Below, one piece after another: positions 41,012-45,969 of a stretch of 64,000 bases of DNA. The stretch covers positions 141,481-205,480 of the forward strand of contig ONND01000007.1 of the NCBI GenBank assembly GCA_900319105.1, in the 5' to 3' direction. The notes below the pieces were generated by a model that was not told the origin of the DNA, did no database searches, and was given only the letters and a program-made list of their open reading frames with translations. Numbering within the stretch: the stretch's first letter is position 1; every line of letters begins with the position of its first letter. The DNA comes from an uncultured Bacteroidales bacterium. GTDB taxonomy: Bacteria; Bacteroidota; Bacteroidia; Bacteroidales; Paludibacteraceae. The position numbers were made by a program, and so were the translations under genes.

Positions 41012-41935
41012 TTAGCGTTGAACACGTCCGTTAGCGTTACCACCTGCGAGGCTCAATACCTCATCTTCGCTTACGAGGTTGTAGTCGCCGTTGATGGTGT
41101 GCTTCAGAGCCGAAGCAGCTACTGCGAACTCAAGAGCCGAAGCCTGGTCGCCCGGATACTTGAGCATACCGTGGATCAGACCGCCGGAGAACGAGTCACC
41201 GCCACCTACGCGGTCGATGATCGGGTTGATCTCGTAACGCTTGCTCTGGTAGAACTCCTTGCCGTTGTAGATCATGGCTTTCCAGCCGTTGAACGTAGCG
41301 CTGTAGCTCTCGCGCAGCGTCGAAACAACATACTTGAAGCCGAACTCTTTCATCATCTGCTCGAAGATGCCTTTGTAGCCCTCAGCGTTGGTCTCGCCGC
41401 CTTCTACATCTGCATCCGGCTTGAAGCCGAGACACAGCTCTGCATCTTCCTCGTTACCGATACATACATCTACGTACTTCATCAACGGACGCATGATCGA
41501 GATAGCTTTCTCGCTGGTCCACAGTTTCTTACGGAAGTTCAGGTCCACCGAAACGGTTACGCCGTGACGCTTTCAGCAGCTTTGTCCGAGATAGCCGGAG
41601 TGATGCCGCTCCAGTGGAACCATGCTGCACCTTCCATGATCTTGTCGAAGTCAAAATCCTTCGGATCTGCCTCAGCGATAGCGCTGTGAGCACGGTCGTA
41701 AATGACCTTGGACGGACGCATCGAAGCGCCGGTCTCGCAGTAGTACAGACCTACGCGGTCGCCGCCACGAACGATATAATCGTCCTTCACGCCATAACGA
41801 CGCAGTGAGTTAACGGCAATCTGACCGATCTCATGTTTCGGCAGTTTGGTTACCAGATAAGCCTCGTGACCATAGTTAGCGCACGAAATAGCTACGTTAG
41901 CCTCACCACCACCGGGGATGATACGGAAAAATGAA
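41012..41935 (-). pseudogene. kdgK: 2-keto-3-deoxygluconate kinase, frameshifted and lacking its 5' end
   Basis: Two frames together cover most of a PfkB-type KDG kinase. The upstream part runs from about 41935 (IIPGGGEANVAISCANYGHE, LVTKLPKHEIGQIAVNSLRR, GGDRVGLYYCETGASMRPSK, WFHWSGITPAISDKAAESV) and hits a stop at 41557; the downstream part (GVTVSVDLNFRKKLW to stop at 41012) includes RVGGGDSFSGGLIHG with the catalytic Asp. Against the family pattern about 11 residues are missing at 41564, leaving five bases, so a gap of 28 bases is inferred. The first 25-30 residues, including the start codon, are absent: sequence changes to AT-rich DNA of the adjacent island near 41940. The gene would not make a working enzyme as given. 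Confidence 0.85.
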
Positions 41936-42009: not shown

Positions 42010-42050
42010 AGGATTTGGCCTTCGTCTATTAGCCCCGAATTTTATTCGGG
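42010..42050. repeat. REP palindrome 1 (downstream of RAYT)
   Basis: Starts AGGATTTGGCCTTCGTC, ends in CCCGAAT-TTT-ATTCGGG (42034-42050). It is a 41-base unit repeated at 42091-42131. Confidence 0.88.
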
Positions 42051-42090
42051 TTTGAATTATTCTGTGTTATCTTTTGTCTTATTGCTGTTG

Positions 42091-42131
42091 AGGATTTGGC
42101 CTTCGTCTATTAGTCCCGCATTTTATGCGGG
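42091..42131. repeat. REP palindrome 2, supplies the RAYT stop codon
   Basis: Same 41-base unit but with stem CCCGCAT-TTT-ATGCGGG: the A-T pair of copy 1 is a C-G pair here, with both arms changed together. The minus-strand TAA stop of the RAYT gene (42123-42125) lies within the loop/stem. Confidence 0.88.
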
Positions 42132-43214
42132 TTTGTTCAATGCCTCGCATATTCCCTCTGCCATTTTATTCATCACCACACACTCAGCTCTGGTCACATG
42201 AGGCTTGTCCGGATTATGCTGCCACGGCGATAGTATCAACATCCTTCCCTCTGCGACCGCCTCAAACAATCCCTCTGCCGGCTTGTAATACTCCCCAAAT
42301 CCATTATCCGCTATATAAATAATGGTATGTTTCTCGCGCAGCAACACCTCCAATACCTCCTTCTCTTTCGGGCTAATGAACGGCGACACCATCACTACCC
42401 CTTTACGAGCCGCCAGCACACATCCGTTCATATACTCGCGTAGCCGTGTCGCGTCTCCATGCTGCTCAGCATCTTCCACCCAAATCCTCCGTACATGTAC
42501 CGGCGAGAACTTCTCTGCCTGCATAATGCCTACATTCCCAATTCCGCTATATTTCTGTCCCGCTATCTCTATATCTCGCTGCACTCTGAAATATCCCGGC
42601 ATCAACCTTTTCGTTGCTAACCTCTGCGGGTTCATCTGCACATAGCGGATCATCGTTTGTAGTTGCCCTTTGTGTGACATCGGACGCACAAAAGGCCGCT
42701 CTGTGAATATTGGAAATGGGAAACCTCCGTTCTTATCTCCCGCCTTGCCTCCTTGCTCTCCTTCGTCCATTAGCCCCGAATTCAATTCGGGATAAATAGC
42801 ATGGCATGCAATGTCCCCTTCGTTTGTTAACCCCGAATTTAATTCGGGACTAATTGACGAAGGAATTGTTCTTCCGAGTTTTTTTGCTCCTTGCCAGAAT
42901 CCTCGAACGACCGTATTGAATGTCTTATCCATCGGGCGTGTTACATAAATAATAGCATGCAAGTGGTCTGGCATAAGACAATATTGAAGGATTCGCGTTT
43001 CCGGATAGTAATTATGAAGATTCACTAACTCATCAACAAGTCTATCCCCCATCTCAGTCCTTTCCACCACTGCCTGTTTTGGATCACTCTCAGGAATGAC
43101 AAGCCTTCCCAATAAACTCTCTCTGCTTGGCACAACCAGCGTAACGTGGTAAATGCCGACACCTCTCCATGCCGTTCCCGTCTCTTGCCATTTCCATGTC
43201 TCCTGTTCTGCCAT
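42123..43214 (-). CDS. REP-associated tyrosine transposase (RAYT) fused to a Rossmann-like domain
   Basis: 363 residues from the ATG at 43214; a TTG at 43235 is a weaker upstream start. The N-terminal Y1/HUH domain has GIYHVTLVVPSR, YCLMPDHLHAIIYV (HUH pair at 84 and 86) and the candidate catalytic Tyr191 in MIRYVQMNPQR. Between these two blocks lie two REP-coded peptides, SPELNSGLTNEG and YPELNSGLMDEG (about 122-152). The C-terminal 100 residues (AARKGVVMVSPFISPKEKEV, TIIYIADNGFGEYYKP, RMLILSPWQH) resemble a DprA/SLOG-type Rossmann fold, which is not part of classical RAYTs. RAYTs cut and join single-stranded DNA at REP hairpins. The fold of the C-terminal part is inferred by eye. Confidence 0.85.
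   Translation of the reverse strand: MAEQETWKWQETGTAWRGVGIYHVTLVVPSRESLLGRLVIPESDPKQAVVERTEMGDRLVDELVNLHNYYPETRILQYCLMPDHLHAIIYVTRPMDKTFNTVVRGFWQGAKKLGRTIPSSISPELNSGLTNEGDIACHAIYPELNSGLMDEGEQGGKAGDKNGGFPFPIFTERPFVRPMSHKGQLQTMIRYVQMNPQRLATKRLMPGYFRVQRDIEIAGQKYSGIGNVGIMQAEKFSPVHVRRIWVEDAEQHGDATRLREYMNGCVLAARKGVVMVSPFISPKEKEVLEVLLREKHTIIYIADNGFGEYYKPAEGLFEAVAEGRMLILSPWQHNPDKPHVTRAECVVMNKMAEGICEALNKPA
42760..42791. repeat. REP palindrome 3, in frame inside RAYT
   Basis: CCTTCGTCCATTAGC followed by stem CCCGAAT-TCA-ATTCGGG (42775-42791). Codes YPELNSGLMDEG on the minus strand. Confidence 0.88.
42817..42863. repeat. REP palindrome 4, in frame inside RAYT
   Basis: Core CCCGAAT-TTA-ATTCGGG (42832-42848) inside a longer inverted repeat with outer arms CCTTCGT (42817-42823) and ACGAAGG (42857-42863). 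Codes SPELNSGLTNEG on the minus strand. Confidence 0.88.
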
Positions 43215-43348
43215 TTTCTTTGTATCTTTTTTCAACTAGTGACAATCTGTCACCGCTTCACGATGTGCCACTTTGCGTCTGTATTTCTATTATCGGTCTC
43301 TCTCCCTTCCGTCCTAGATCCATCCACCTGTCTTCCATTAGTCTCCAT

Positions 43349-43392
43349 CGGATGCCGATCGGGTGCTCATCGGATGCTGATCGGGTGCTCAT
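43349..43392. repeat. Four 11-base tandem units upstream of RAYT
   Basis: CGGATGCCGAT, CGGGTGCTCAT, CGGATGCTGAT, CGGGTGCTCAT, an alternating pattern. The rest of the 43215-43430 gap shows no gene. Confidence 0.85.
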
Positions 43393-43430: not shown

Positions 43431-43796
43431 TTATCCGTTGTTCGTGTTACTTTCCTCCTGCTTTCTCTCCTCGCTCAACTCATGTTTGATATAATCGTAC
43501 AGCCTCCCTTGTATAGGCTTGTTATATTTCCTTGCTTTCTTTAGTGCCTCCTCATATCGTGCCTGCCATTCCGCCTTACGCTCCGGATCATGCATGATTG
43601 CCTTCGTCTCCGCCATCAGTTCCGCAAAACGCTTGGCAGTTGGGTGTTCCGCCTTTGCTTTCTTTGTCTTCTTGCTCAACTCCGGTTTCGCACACACAGC
43701 AGCCCATTCCCCGTTTCCCGGAATCCGCCGTGCATAATGTCTCTGATCCACATTCCCCTGCAACCGATCCACTATATTCACCCACTTCGCTTTCAT
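43431..43796 (-). CDS. Small basic hypothetical protein
   Basis: 121 residues, strongly charged (Lys, Arg, Glu), without signal or membrane segment. The N-terminal part (MKAKWVNIVDRLQGNVDQRH, YARRIPGNGEWAAVCAKPE) resembles small Bacteroidales proteins often found near mobile elements; the C-terminal 70 residues are helical (AKRFAELMAETKAIM, EEALKKARKYNKPIQGRLYD). I do not recognise a defined family and propose no function. It lies between the RAYT gene and a split REP copy. Confidence 0.6.
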   Translation of the reverse strand: MKAKWVNIVDRLQGNVDQRHYARRIPGNGEWAAVCAKPELSKKTKKAKAEHPTAKRFAELMAETKAIMHDPERKAEWQARYEEALKKARKYNKPIQGRLYDYIKHELSEERKQEESNTNNG

Positions 43797-43838
43797 TTTT
43801 ATCTATCTTCTTTATGCGACTTTTTTGAGCATTTGTCT

Positions 43839-43897
43839 CCTTCGTCCATTAGCCCCGAAATAATCGTACCCCTTGTGGGTTAAGAATTTTATTCGGG
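43839..43897. repeat. REP palindrome 5, split by a 27-base insert
   Basis: CCTTCGTCCATTAGCCCCGAA (the 5' half of the unit, 43839-43859) and TTTTATTCGGG (43887-43897) are separated by 27 bases, within which ACCCCTTGTGGGT (43868-43880) can fold. Confidence 0.8.
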
Positions 43898-43954
43898 AAC
43901 ATCTTCCAATCCTCTTTTATCTGAACTCTTATGTCACTTCAATATATCCGTATT

Positions 43955-45004
43955 TTATAATTTTTTATACATGGTAACTATCATATCTGCTAATTCGTTA
44001 GCTTCAATCTCCATCAGTAATGATTTCATATTCCAGCAATTGGAGTGCCACCCTACATATCGCTCCGCTGCTTCTCTATTTACAGTTGTTTCATCCACAT
44101 AAATTGTCCGTTTAGGATCTGCTCCTATTGCTAAATCTACCTCTTTAAATATTCGTTCATCAGGCTTACAACAATGCATTTCATATGACAGGAAAATATC
44201 ATCAAAGTTTTCTTCTATATGAGGAGAATACCGCATCCCTATGTCAAACCAATGCCGTGAGTTAGTATTTGCCAATAGGAACATCCGATATCCTTTGCTA
44301 CGCAAGTCTTTAATCTGCTCCCAAATTAAATCTGGTATATCGGATAGAAAATTATTCCAAGCAAATATGACATCCATTTTTGAAGTACCTGACTTACTAT
44401 GCTTTAATACTTCCTGAATAAATGTTTCTGTTCTCATTCCTCGATTGTATGCATCAATTAGAGTACCTTTTTGATTTGGGTTGTTAAGTCCCAATACCTG
44501 ATATATGCTTCTGTCGTCCATAAATCGACAAAAAACATCACGACATCTGCTAATATCTGGCTTCATCAACACTCCTAAATCCAAGATAATATTATCTGCG
44601 TCAACTATTTTTTTTTCATTATAACCAGTAAAAAAAGAACTATTCTCTAATGTCAAATCCTTACGAGAAGATATGTGTTTTGCCTCATATACATAGCCTA
44701 TCCACTCCTCTATATCATCCAAAAACTCATAAATTTCAGTTTCGTGCAACACACTATAAGACTCTGCTTTGGGGAATAAACCTCTATTCTTTGCATTACA
44801 ATCTTCTTGCCATTCGTCGCTATGATAATATGCAGCGAGAGATTTTATCTGCGGTAATAATTTTTCTTTCTTACGCTGCAACTGTTCTTTTGATAATTTA
44901 TTTTCTTCAATCTCTTCTATTAATGAATAAACAGGTTTTACTAATGTTAGTAAAATCTTCTCCATCTTCTCTATACGCTCAATATGCTTATAATTTTTTC
45001 CCAT
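43955..45004 (-). CDS. DUF4298 domain fused to a HAD-family phosphatase
   Basis: 349 residues. Residues about 8-110 match the DUF4298 pattern (IERIEKMEKIL, LPQIKSLAAYYHSDEWQED, GLFPKAESYSVLHETEIYEF). Residues about 135-345 form a HAD hydrolase of the YihX/epoxide-hydrolase-like branch: motif I IILDLGVLMKPD, motif II FLLANTNSRHW, motif III KPDERIFKEV, motif IV TIYVDETTVNREAAERYVG. It is cytoplasmic. Base composition is much more AT-rich than the chromosome around. It lies next to an Mrr-type nuclease on the same strand (56 bases apart), so they may act together, but substrate and role are unknown. Confidence 0.8.
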   Translation of the reverse strand: MGKNYKHIERIEKMEKILLTLVKPVYSLIEEIEENKLSKEQLQRKKEKLLPQIKSLAAYYHSDEWQEDCNAKNRGLFPKAESYSVLHETEIYEFLDDIEEWIGYVYEAKHISSRKDLTLENSSFFTGYNEKKIVDADNIILDLGVLMKPDISRCRDVFCRFMDDRSIYQVLGLNNPNQKGTLIDAYNRGMRTETFIQEVLKHSKSGTSKMDVIFAWNNFLSDIPDLIWEQIKDLRSKGYRMFLLANTNSRHWFDIGMRYSPHIEENFDDIFLSYEMHCCKPDERIFKEVDLAIGADPKRTIYVDETTVNREAAERYVGWHSNCWNMKSLLMEIEANELADMIVTMYKKL

Positions 45005-45060: not shown

Positions 45061-45969
45061 TTATTCTTCAAAGAAATAACCAGCGTCTAATCTCTTAACT
45101 ATATATGATCGACTTAATGAAACTCCGACATTACATTCTATCATATAATTAGCCAACTCCTTACCGTCCATCAAAACGACTTTAACGTCTCCTTTCGGTT
45201 GGAACAAACGTGCTTCTTTGGAGAAATAAGATGTAGTAATGAATACCCCTTTCTTGGCTCCTTGACCGACTAACGCGCCAACGAACTTCTGGATTTCAGG
45301 TTGTCCCACACAATTATTCCAGCGTTTTGCTTGTACGTAAATTTTGTCAAGTCCGAGTTTATCTTCTTTGATTACCCCATCAATGCCATCATCCTTAACA
45401 TATGCTGTAACCATGCCGGCATCTTCAGAAGAATCCCCATAACCAATCGCTATTAGTACATCCACTACTATTTGTTCGAACTTTTGAGGAGAGACATCCT
45501 TTAACGATGCTAATACTTCACTTGCTAATTGATTATTGAGTTGAGAATACACTTCTTCCAAAACTTCTCTTGGAGTTTTCTCAGCTTCTTCTGTAGTGAT
45601 TATTTCTTTTCTCTGCTTGGTATTTGCTTTAGGTTTACGCCCATAAAACTCCACAAATGCGGGGTACTCGGACAAAGTACGCAAAGTTACTTCACCAGCT
45701 TTCAATCTTTTTAATCCTTCGGCAGTAATTTTATACTGCCCGTTCACAGCTTTTTCCGCCAAACCTGCTTTACGCAGATATGTTCCCGCCCACAAAACAC
45801 GGTTATAGACCTGCGTCTGGCTTTGGTTGGCAATTCGCTCTTGTGCCTCCTCTTCGGTAAGCCCAAAATATTTTATCGCAAATTCTACAAGATCCTTGTT
45901 CTTGTGGATGTTTCCATCCGACAAGCACTTCAAATAGGGTGTAAAAAAACTATCAAACTTTGGTACCAT
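45061..45969 (-). CDS. Mrr-type restriction endonuclease
   Basis: 302 residues. An N-terminal winged-helix Mrr_N-like domain (about 1-100: YLKCLSDGNIHKNKDLVEFA, YNRVLWAGTYLRKAGLAEKA, YKITAEGLKRLKAG) is followed by the Mrr catalytic domain (about 160-275: SPQKFEQIVVDVLIAIGYGD, DDGIDGVIKEDKLG, IYVQAKRW, GVFITTSYFSKEA). The D-(x)n-QxK nuclease core is present as GIDGV ... VQAK. Mrr proteins cut DNA carrying foreign or modified bases and need no partner methylase; none is present here. Located at the right end of the AT-rich island. Confidence 0.9.
   Translation of the reverse strand: MVPKFDSFFTPYLKCLSDGNIHKNKDLVEFAIKYFGLTEEEAQERIANQSQTQVYNRVLWAGTYLRKAGLAEKAVNGQYKITAEGLKRLKAGEVTLRTLSEYPAFVEFYGRKPKANTKQRKEIITTEEAEKTPREVLEEVYSQLNNQLASEVLASLKDVSPQKFEQIVVDVLIAIGYGDSSEDAGMVTAYVKDDGIDGVIKEDKLGLDKIYVQAKRWNNCVGQPEIQKFVGALVGQGAKKGVFITTSYFSKEARLFQPKGDVKVVLMDGKELANYMIECNVGVSLSRSYIVKRLDAGYFFEE

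Follow-up and report, generated by a model that had tools for sequence, protein, structure and literature searches.

Bacteroidales RAYT genes that carry REP hairpins within their own reading frame contain what behaves, by comparison of related genes, as a swappable cassette: the protein segment with the HUH motif and the adjoining hairpin appear to be replaced together. This cassette is the new element of the present analysis. It was recognised from a gene in a 64,000-nucleotide stretch of an uncultured Bacteroidales genome, the whole of which we call the window and to which all positions refer unless a locus is named. The initial annotation missed that hairpin and HUH segment move together. 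We consider it probable, though far from settled, that the gene is a RAYT with a self-labelled specificity cassette, in which the HUH segment is predicted to read the foot of the REP, with the in-gene REP as the putative site of its own enzyme.

The RAYT (TnpAREP-like) gene of the window (42123–43214, minus strand) encodes 363 residues with an HUH and Tyr core followed by a DprA/SLOG-like domain, as delineated by catalytic residues, structure model and Foldseek. Its motifs are DHLH (HUH) and YVQMNP (Tyr). In alignment A1 with 69 relatives (69 of 72 thinned proteins, three having been removed by hand) H84, H86, Y191, N195 and P196 are invariant and D83 is nearly so. The AlphaFold model of the whole protein (pLDDT 85.6, pTM 0.79) matches the E. 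coli RAYT structure 4er8 with a Foldseek E of 1e-3 and prob 1.00; together with the invariant residues this bears out the RAYT identity first assigned to the gene. NCBIfam REP_Tyr_transpos matched the protein at 2.8e-6 with 27.3 bits, under its cut-off of 80, the sole Pfam match was Y1_Tnp at E 0.28, and searches of PHROGs and PADLOC with the protein gave no match. The gene combines an HUH motif and a single Tyr in a Y---NP context with the E. coli RAYT fold and an associated REP family, as expected of RAYT / TnpAREP class 2, and its product is most likely a REP-processing HUH/Tyr nuclease, as predicted from its sequence. The own genome holds five RAYT loci, the window copy and four others that are 58–67% identical to it, one of which (contig C26) has an in-frame stop. 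An IS200/IS605 insertion sequence was considered and rejected, as near-identical copies are lacking in the own genome.

Two parts of the gene matter for what follows. The HUH segment (residues 57–116; 42867–43046, minus strand) is the protein part of the swapped cassette, delimited by an identity drop between orthologues and by its correlation with REP feet; it contains the HUH motif at 42957–42965 and W107 at 42894–42896. The linker (42714–42872, minus strand) lies after W107 and before the next strand. It is mostly encoded by two REPs, and its residues 122–162 are modelled with pLDDT below 50 and predicted to be disordered.

The window has five copies of one head-plus-palindrome family, at 42019, 42100, 42760, 42817 and 43839, as had been claimed. 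The head is CCTTCGTC-N-ATTAG and not GTAG as first proposed, the copy at 42817 having 3 mismatches. With up to 3 mismatches the head pattern matches the window 6 times, whereas 100 shuffles averaged 0.14 matches and never reached 6; the sixth match belongs to the copy at 42817 as its second, opposite foot, this copy having feet on both sides where the other copies have one. This double-foot in-gene REP (42814–42866, listed without strand) has its inner stem-loop at 42832–42848 and an outer stem CTTCGT/ACGAAG. The other in-gene REP (42757–42809, also listed without strand) has a single foot, its head on the plus strand and its stem-loop at 42775–42791. The two are read in frame as the peptides SPELNSGLTNEG and YPELNSGLMDEG, in agreement with the initial annotation. 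A further REP on the plus strand (42097–42149, stem-loop 42115–42131) marks the 3' end of the gene and holds the stop codon at 42123–42125 inside its hairpin, again as described before; a single-foot copy on the same strand lies downstream of the gene (42016–42068, stem-loop 42034–42050). The stems of these two differ by a paired A-T to C-G change, which had been noted correctly. Upstream of the gene is a plus-strand variant with a loop of about 35 nt (43836–43915), and a similar long-loop form occurs on contig C1 of the own genome. The inner motif of the long-loop variant, AATAATCGTACCCC(T/C)TGTGGGT, is found both at 43836–43915 and at positions 605–657 of locus L031.

A search of the own genome for such units, proposed earlier as a check, finds them present in small number: the head with up to 2 mismatches occurs at 8 places. 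A model of the hairpin family matches, at E ≤ 0.1, 6 in-gene hairpins and at least 18 other places, the latter count being a lower bound as 150 of 558 candidates were scored. The hairpins inside the genes of all five RAYT loci score best with it, and part of them belong to the training set of the model. Three of the other places were inspected against the open reading frames; two are intergenic and one lies across a gene end. As to the further suggestion that the REP/RAYT system is self-inserting, orthologues do vary in carrying 1, 2 or 3 REPs in the linker, but no insertion event was seen.

Within the genus the gene has a match at E ≤ 1e-10 in 109 of the 151 genomes sampled, with a maximum of 11 matched stretches per genome; one gene may yield two stretches. 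An order-wide sample of 295 genomes has matches at E ≤ 1e-6 in 40, and in 26 of the 40 they cover the N-terminal half only, as in short RAYTs. Relatives of full length that share the C-terminal domain extend to several further families. The named records (the best 80 of 103) come for the most part from Bacteroidales assemblies of gut and rumen, under the labels Paludibacteraceae, Prevotella or Bacteroidales, and one isolate, Xylanibacter brevis ATCC 19188 (L207), has a relative without a recognisable linker REP. The plasmid and phage collections searched contain no relative. One gene (L205) lies on a contig labelled Alphaproteobacteria, which may be a binning error. From these largely metagenome-assembled sources 153 full-length distinct genes were extracted, 11 of 164 being partial and left uncounted. 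The set draws on part of the genus matches and on the best 80 of the 103 loci, and it consists of better-scoring relatives; the fractions given below are therefore valid for near relatives.

In 130 of the 153 genes the linker, from the W helix to the PIFT block, contains a perfect hairpin with a 3-nt loop and a stem of 6 bp or more; in 116 the stem is 7 bp or more. Hairpins of at least 7 bp have a density of 7.46 per kb of linker (131 in 17,571 nt); for the remainder of these genes it is 0.297 per kb (43 in 145,011 nt), and 24 of those 43 are at the gene end. Among the remaining 23 genes, 11 have a degenerate hairpin that matches the hairpin model at E < 0.1, a model trained on linker hairpins and bound to score linkers highly. 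Perfect or degenerate, a linker hairpin is found in 141 of 153 genes, and 12 have no recognisable linker REP. Ten distant full-length relatives (L225–L234), taken without a control, include five with a hairpin of at least 7 bp of other sequence in the linker region. Hairpins of this kind enclose the stop codon of 18 of 152 genes, compared with 3 of 3601 control codons.

Reading frame and base pairing both indicate what is conserved here. The codon position of the loop centre of the perfect hairpins is 1 (68 genes), 2 (57 genes) or 0 (5 genes), and the linker peptide varies, for instance between SPELNSG-like and SPNDIRDN-like forms. In alignment A2 (81 of 83 thinned hairpins, two removed by hand) all 6 outer pairs show paired changes and 66% of outer cells are paired, the outer stem having played no part in the selection of hairpins; the inner stem is 98.6% paired, in part forced by that selection. 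The covariation score of the whole structure is 0.456 compared with 0.152 when shuffled (0 of 500), and versions of the structure slid along the alignment pair at 28–48% compared with 83.6%. Another measure of covariation, the number of further pair types, was unremarkable (38 of 500). The initial annotation had argued for selection on the hairpin from one paired change, and this now holds for both stems across the relatives. Because the stems change in pairs and the reading frame of the hairpin differs between genes, it is the DNA that is kept and not the peptide; the alignments show a hairpin conserved, to judge from these substitutions, as nucleic acid.

In-gene copies also tend to be built differently. 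At least 4 of the 6 outer pairs are present in 59 of 108 linker hairpins compared with 21 of 136 at other places of these loci (98 beyond the gene and 38 within it but not in the linker), and the median score of the weaker foot is 0.6 in linkers and -10.1 elsewhere, with a matrix learned from linkers. All hairpins were oriented, and the double-foot set also filtered, with this head matrix, which favours linkers in the head score. The in-gene copy thus tends toward a head on both strands, where other REPs tend to have it on one. At L172 (3343–3395) the in-gene REP forms a perfect 21-bp stem with both feet wholly paired.

One locus illustrates the exchange. Between uxaC and kdgK, where flank blocks are 77–96% identical, three types of HUH segment occur among related species: A (window, L034, L035), B (L036, L037, L038, L053) and C (L078, L084). 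In all three types kdgK adjoins the RAYT gene, and uxaC is its neighbour on the opposite flank in sequences that extend far enough (window, L144, L145, L149, L150). Between types, DNA identity falls from mostly 80–100% to mostly 36–73% at about nucleotide 150–180 and recovers at about nucleotide 480–540, past the linker. At the protein level, C compared with B is 84–96% identical in the N segment, 45% in HUH, 91–94% in Y and 95–98% in the C segment. The feet differ by type (CTTCGTC, TCTCCGT and TTTCGTC). The pattern extends beyond this locus. Among 129 pairs of proteins at least 85% identical in residues 8–50 and 190–355, identity over residues 57–116 is below 60% in 55, 60–80% in 12 and at least 80% in 62, a two-humped distribution; for the control segment 228–287, with pairs chosen by residues 8–56 and 288–355, it is below 60% in 6 of 137. 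These comparisons show residues ~57–116 and the hairpin as one block that has been exchanged between otherwise similar genes. A donor gene was identified for none of the cassettes.

Over 94 thinned genes the distance between in-gene feet correlates with the distance between HUH segments (57–116) at rho 0.346 (0 of 499 permutations), compared with 0.086 for N (3/499), 0.074 for Y (2/499) and 0.080 for C (8/499); thinning and the other segments of the same proteins serve as the control for relatedness. The correlation is strongest at residues 56–79 and not at 96–119, which adjoin the REP, and differences in variability between residue windows could contribute to this peak. The nearest REP outside the linker (59 thinned loci) gives 0.135 for HUH and 0.158 for residues 56–79 (each 0/499), compared with 0.043 for N (86/499), -0.034 for Y and -0.051 for C; taking the best pair of outside-linker REPs, the values are 0.151 and 0.177 (each 0/499), with N at 0.084 (22/499). 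The correlation of outside-linker REPs with the HUH segment (0.13–0.18) is weak. Of single residues, P29, which is not part of the HUH segment, correlates best in this set, and 76, 77 and 79 come next.

Resemblance between the in-gene REP and its neighbours points in the same direction when feet are considered. Whole-REP identity showed little: a close copy (at least 30/43) of the in-gene REP is present in the flanks examined for 26 of 130 genes, and median identity is 24 for own flanks compared with 23 for the flanks of other loci. Feet were then compared alone, and 51 of 120 outside-linker REPs have feet nearer to their own in-gene foot than to those of 90% of other genes (12 expected), or 29 of 73 when counted per locus. 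We also considered whether paralogues of one genome have orthogonal feet; their mean distance is 0.536 compared with 0.492 permuted (p 0.036), and this is left unclaimed because near-identical pairs are as frequent as expected (4 compared with 3.9).

In the reading we favour, the HUH segment, mainly residues 56–87, would read the foot sequence, and the in-gene REP would be the enzyme's cognate site, so that a cassette swap would change enzyme and site together. The enzyme would bind the site as single-stranded DNA, which the DprA-like domain may help to hold; two feet would give a headed hairpin on both strands, and the enzyme could act on either. The outcome of such action might be autoregulation, cis preference or exchange with a paralogue. 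A bolder version, which we regard as speculative and rather doubtful, is a self-diversifying nuclease that would cut the double-foot REP in its own gene on both strands, with repair from a paralogue swapping segment and site together; if true, specificity would change while the system always carries its own key. It is also conceivable, though on balance unlikely, that the hairpins are passively tolerated: REPs would often land near a RAYT gene, those in the flexible linker would survive, and the hairpin would be roleless. The predicted disorder of the linker and the varying number of REPs (1–3) among orthologues are in keeping with this, as is the published view, in the accessible part of the study of subclass 2.4, that insertions in flexible parts may leave the protein unaffected (PMC6006769). 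Yet 141 of 153 genes have the hairpin, whereas for 104 of 130 the flanks examined show no close copy, both stems show paired changes, and linker copies with their double foot are built differently from other copies.

Co-travel might also come about without any relation of specificity, if recombination breakpoints simply flank both HUH segment and REP. The REP does adjoin the segment, identity drops at about nucleotide 150–180 and recovers at about 480–540 around both, and the correlation for REPs beyond the linker is weak. Those REPs lie beyond the swapped block, however, and still track HUH and not Y or C, and the in-gene peak is at residues 56–79 and not in the REP-adjoining 96–119; we hold this account to be quite unlikely. 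An improbable last candidate is a role at the RNA level, in which an mRNA hairpin would control translation or decay of the RAYT message. The hairpin does sit in the coding part of the message, and REP hairpins have been suggested, in the available portion of the source, to down-regulate RAYT expression in the manner of IS200 (PMC3733652). Against it, G-U and A-C combinations are about equally frequent in the outer stem on the sense strand (46 compared with 44 in 83 thinned hairpins), which is weak evidence, and REPs in non-coding sequence tend to share the feet. The self-labelled cassette remains our preferred reading of the exchange.

The role of RAYTs in their hosts and the way they recognise REPs are open questions in the field. 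The TnpAREP of E. coli acts on single-stranded REP hairpins, which it recognises and cuts in a strand-specific manner, the foot being crucial (PMC8266576). REPs inside the gene of their own transposase, first taken for a novelty of the window, have been published for subclass 2.4 by Quentin et al. (2018), where, in the part of the article at hand, REPs lie between HUH and Tyr and double-foot REPs are described (PMC6006769). With this subclass the present group shares the class 2 HUH/Tyr core with WQ, an in-frame REP in its own gene, double-foot REPs and hosts in the Bacteroidetes. As far as that part goes, subclass 2.4 differs in its motifs (NH[IFV]H and YIxNNP compared with DHLH and YVxMNP), its foot (GT[AG]G compared with a CGTC/TTAG type), the place of its insertion (between beta3 and alphaC, apparently before W, compared with after W107) and its size (median 194 aa without a C-terminal domain, compared with 363 aa and a DprA-like domain), and we rejected membership because motifs, foot, site of insertion and domain composition all differ (PMC6006769). 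Subclass 2.6, as the same portion describes it, shares Bacteroidetes hosts, an alphaC:beta4 insertion and REPs without GT[AG]G; its insertion is 21 aa long and not reported there as a REP, its tail has 29 aa, and its motifs NH[LIV]H and YIH[QN]NP are not those found here, so that this assignment was rejected as well (PMC6006769). The RAYTs with a DprA-like domain are a different group, distinct from subclasses 2.4 and 2.6. Short Bacteroidales RAYTs (L237–L252), several with 2.4-like motifs, have strong hairpins after the HUH motif, mostly with 4-nt loops and several with GTAG.

Many feet of the present group contain CGTC or variants of it. The CGTC-tagged REPs of Di Nocera et al. (2013) have stems of 8–9 bp and loops of 4–5, and are described in the accessible portion of that paper without transposase association (PMC3733652). 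Common to both are a short palindrome, an unpaired CGTC at one end and Bacteroidetes hosts; here the inner stem is 7, the loop 3, and the REPs lie beside and inside a RAYT gene. Because stem and loop differ we regard the likeness to these elements, as described in that portion, as a resemblance only. The group points to a possible transposase partner of Bacteroidales REPs that have CGTC-like feet, and offers many candidate enzyme–target pairs within single genes, from which the foot-reading residues could be mapped by comparison.

The C-terminal domain (residues 228–363; 42126–42533, minus strand) sets these proteins further apart. Modelled alone (pLDDT 93.4), it has ShosA as top Foldseek match (E 1.7e-3, prob 1.00, TMq 0.57), followed by DprA of Helicobacter and Streptococcus (E 0.03–0.07, prob 0.91–0.97, TMq ~0.50, rmsd 5.8–6.7; rmsd 4.7–6.7 over DprA matches at E 0.03 or weaker) and then by an unrelated entry at prob 0.66, with no match at E ≤ 0.001; the whole-protein model matches ShosA at 1e-4. 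The DprA/SLOG-type domain proposed initially is moderately supported as to fold, but direct profile–profile comparison with DprA does not support it: hhalign gave Prob 0.5 and E 0.11, with the register as expected. The DprA Pfam family had no hit in the 56 members of alignment A3, drawn from 79 listed C-terminal domains. A stand-alone 156-aa protein in another genome (G176) bridges both, with PF02481 at 1.5e-5 (under cut-off) and positions 240–333 of the RAYT profile at 2e-7. The SLOG-type Rossmann fold of DprA and ShosA is shared, whereas the DprA signature GTR and SGLAxGxD (A4) is replaced by HVRR and SPFISPKE; because the signature is not retained we call the domain DprA/SLOG-like and not DprA, a model-based assignment in which we place moderate confidence. 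A fusion of RAYT and DprA-like domain was not found in print in the open-access literature searched, preprints apart, and the titles and abstract openings retrieved there for SLOG or DprA with transposase or HUH were on other subjects.

The surroundings of the window gene offer some further observations. Beside it, kdgK (41012–41928) is missing roughly 86 nt at its start that relatives have (junction 41928/41929), and near 41548–41557 it falls into two open reading frames; because of the missing start and the split it looks broken in the own genome. Between uxaC and the RAYT gene lies a gene for an Mrr-like methyl-directed restriction enzyme of type IV (45061–45969; PADLOC mREase_IV 1.3e-75); 43955–45004 encodes a HAD-like hydrolase fused to a DUF4298-like N-terminal part. 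A 121-aa open reading frame at 43431–43796 matched no family at useful E-values in Pfam, NCBIfam or PHROGs, and its DNA is conserved beside the RAYT gene in several orthologous loci. Upstream of the RAYT gene, a short tandem repeat of 11-base units occupies 43346–43389.
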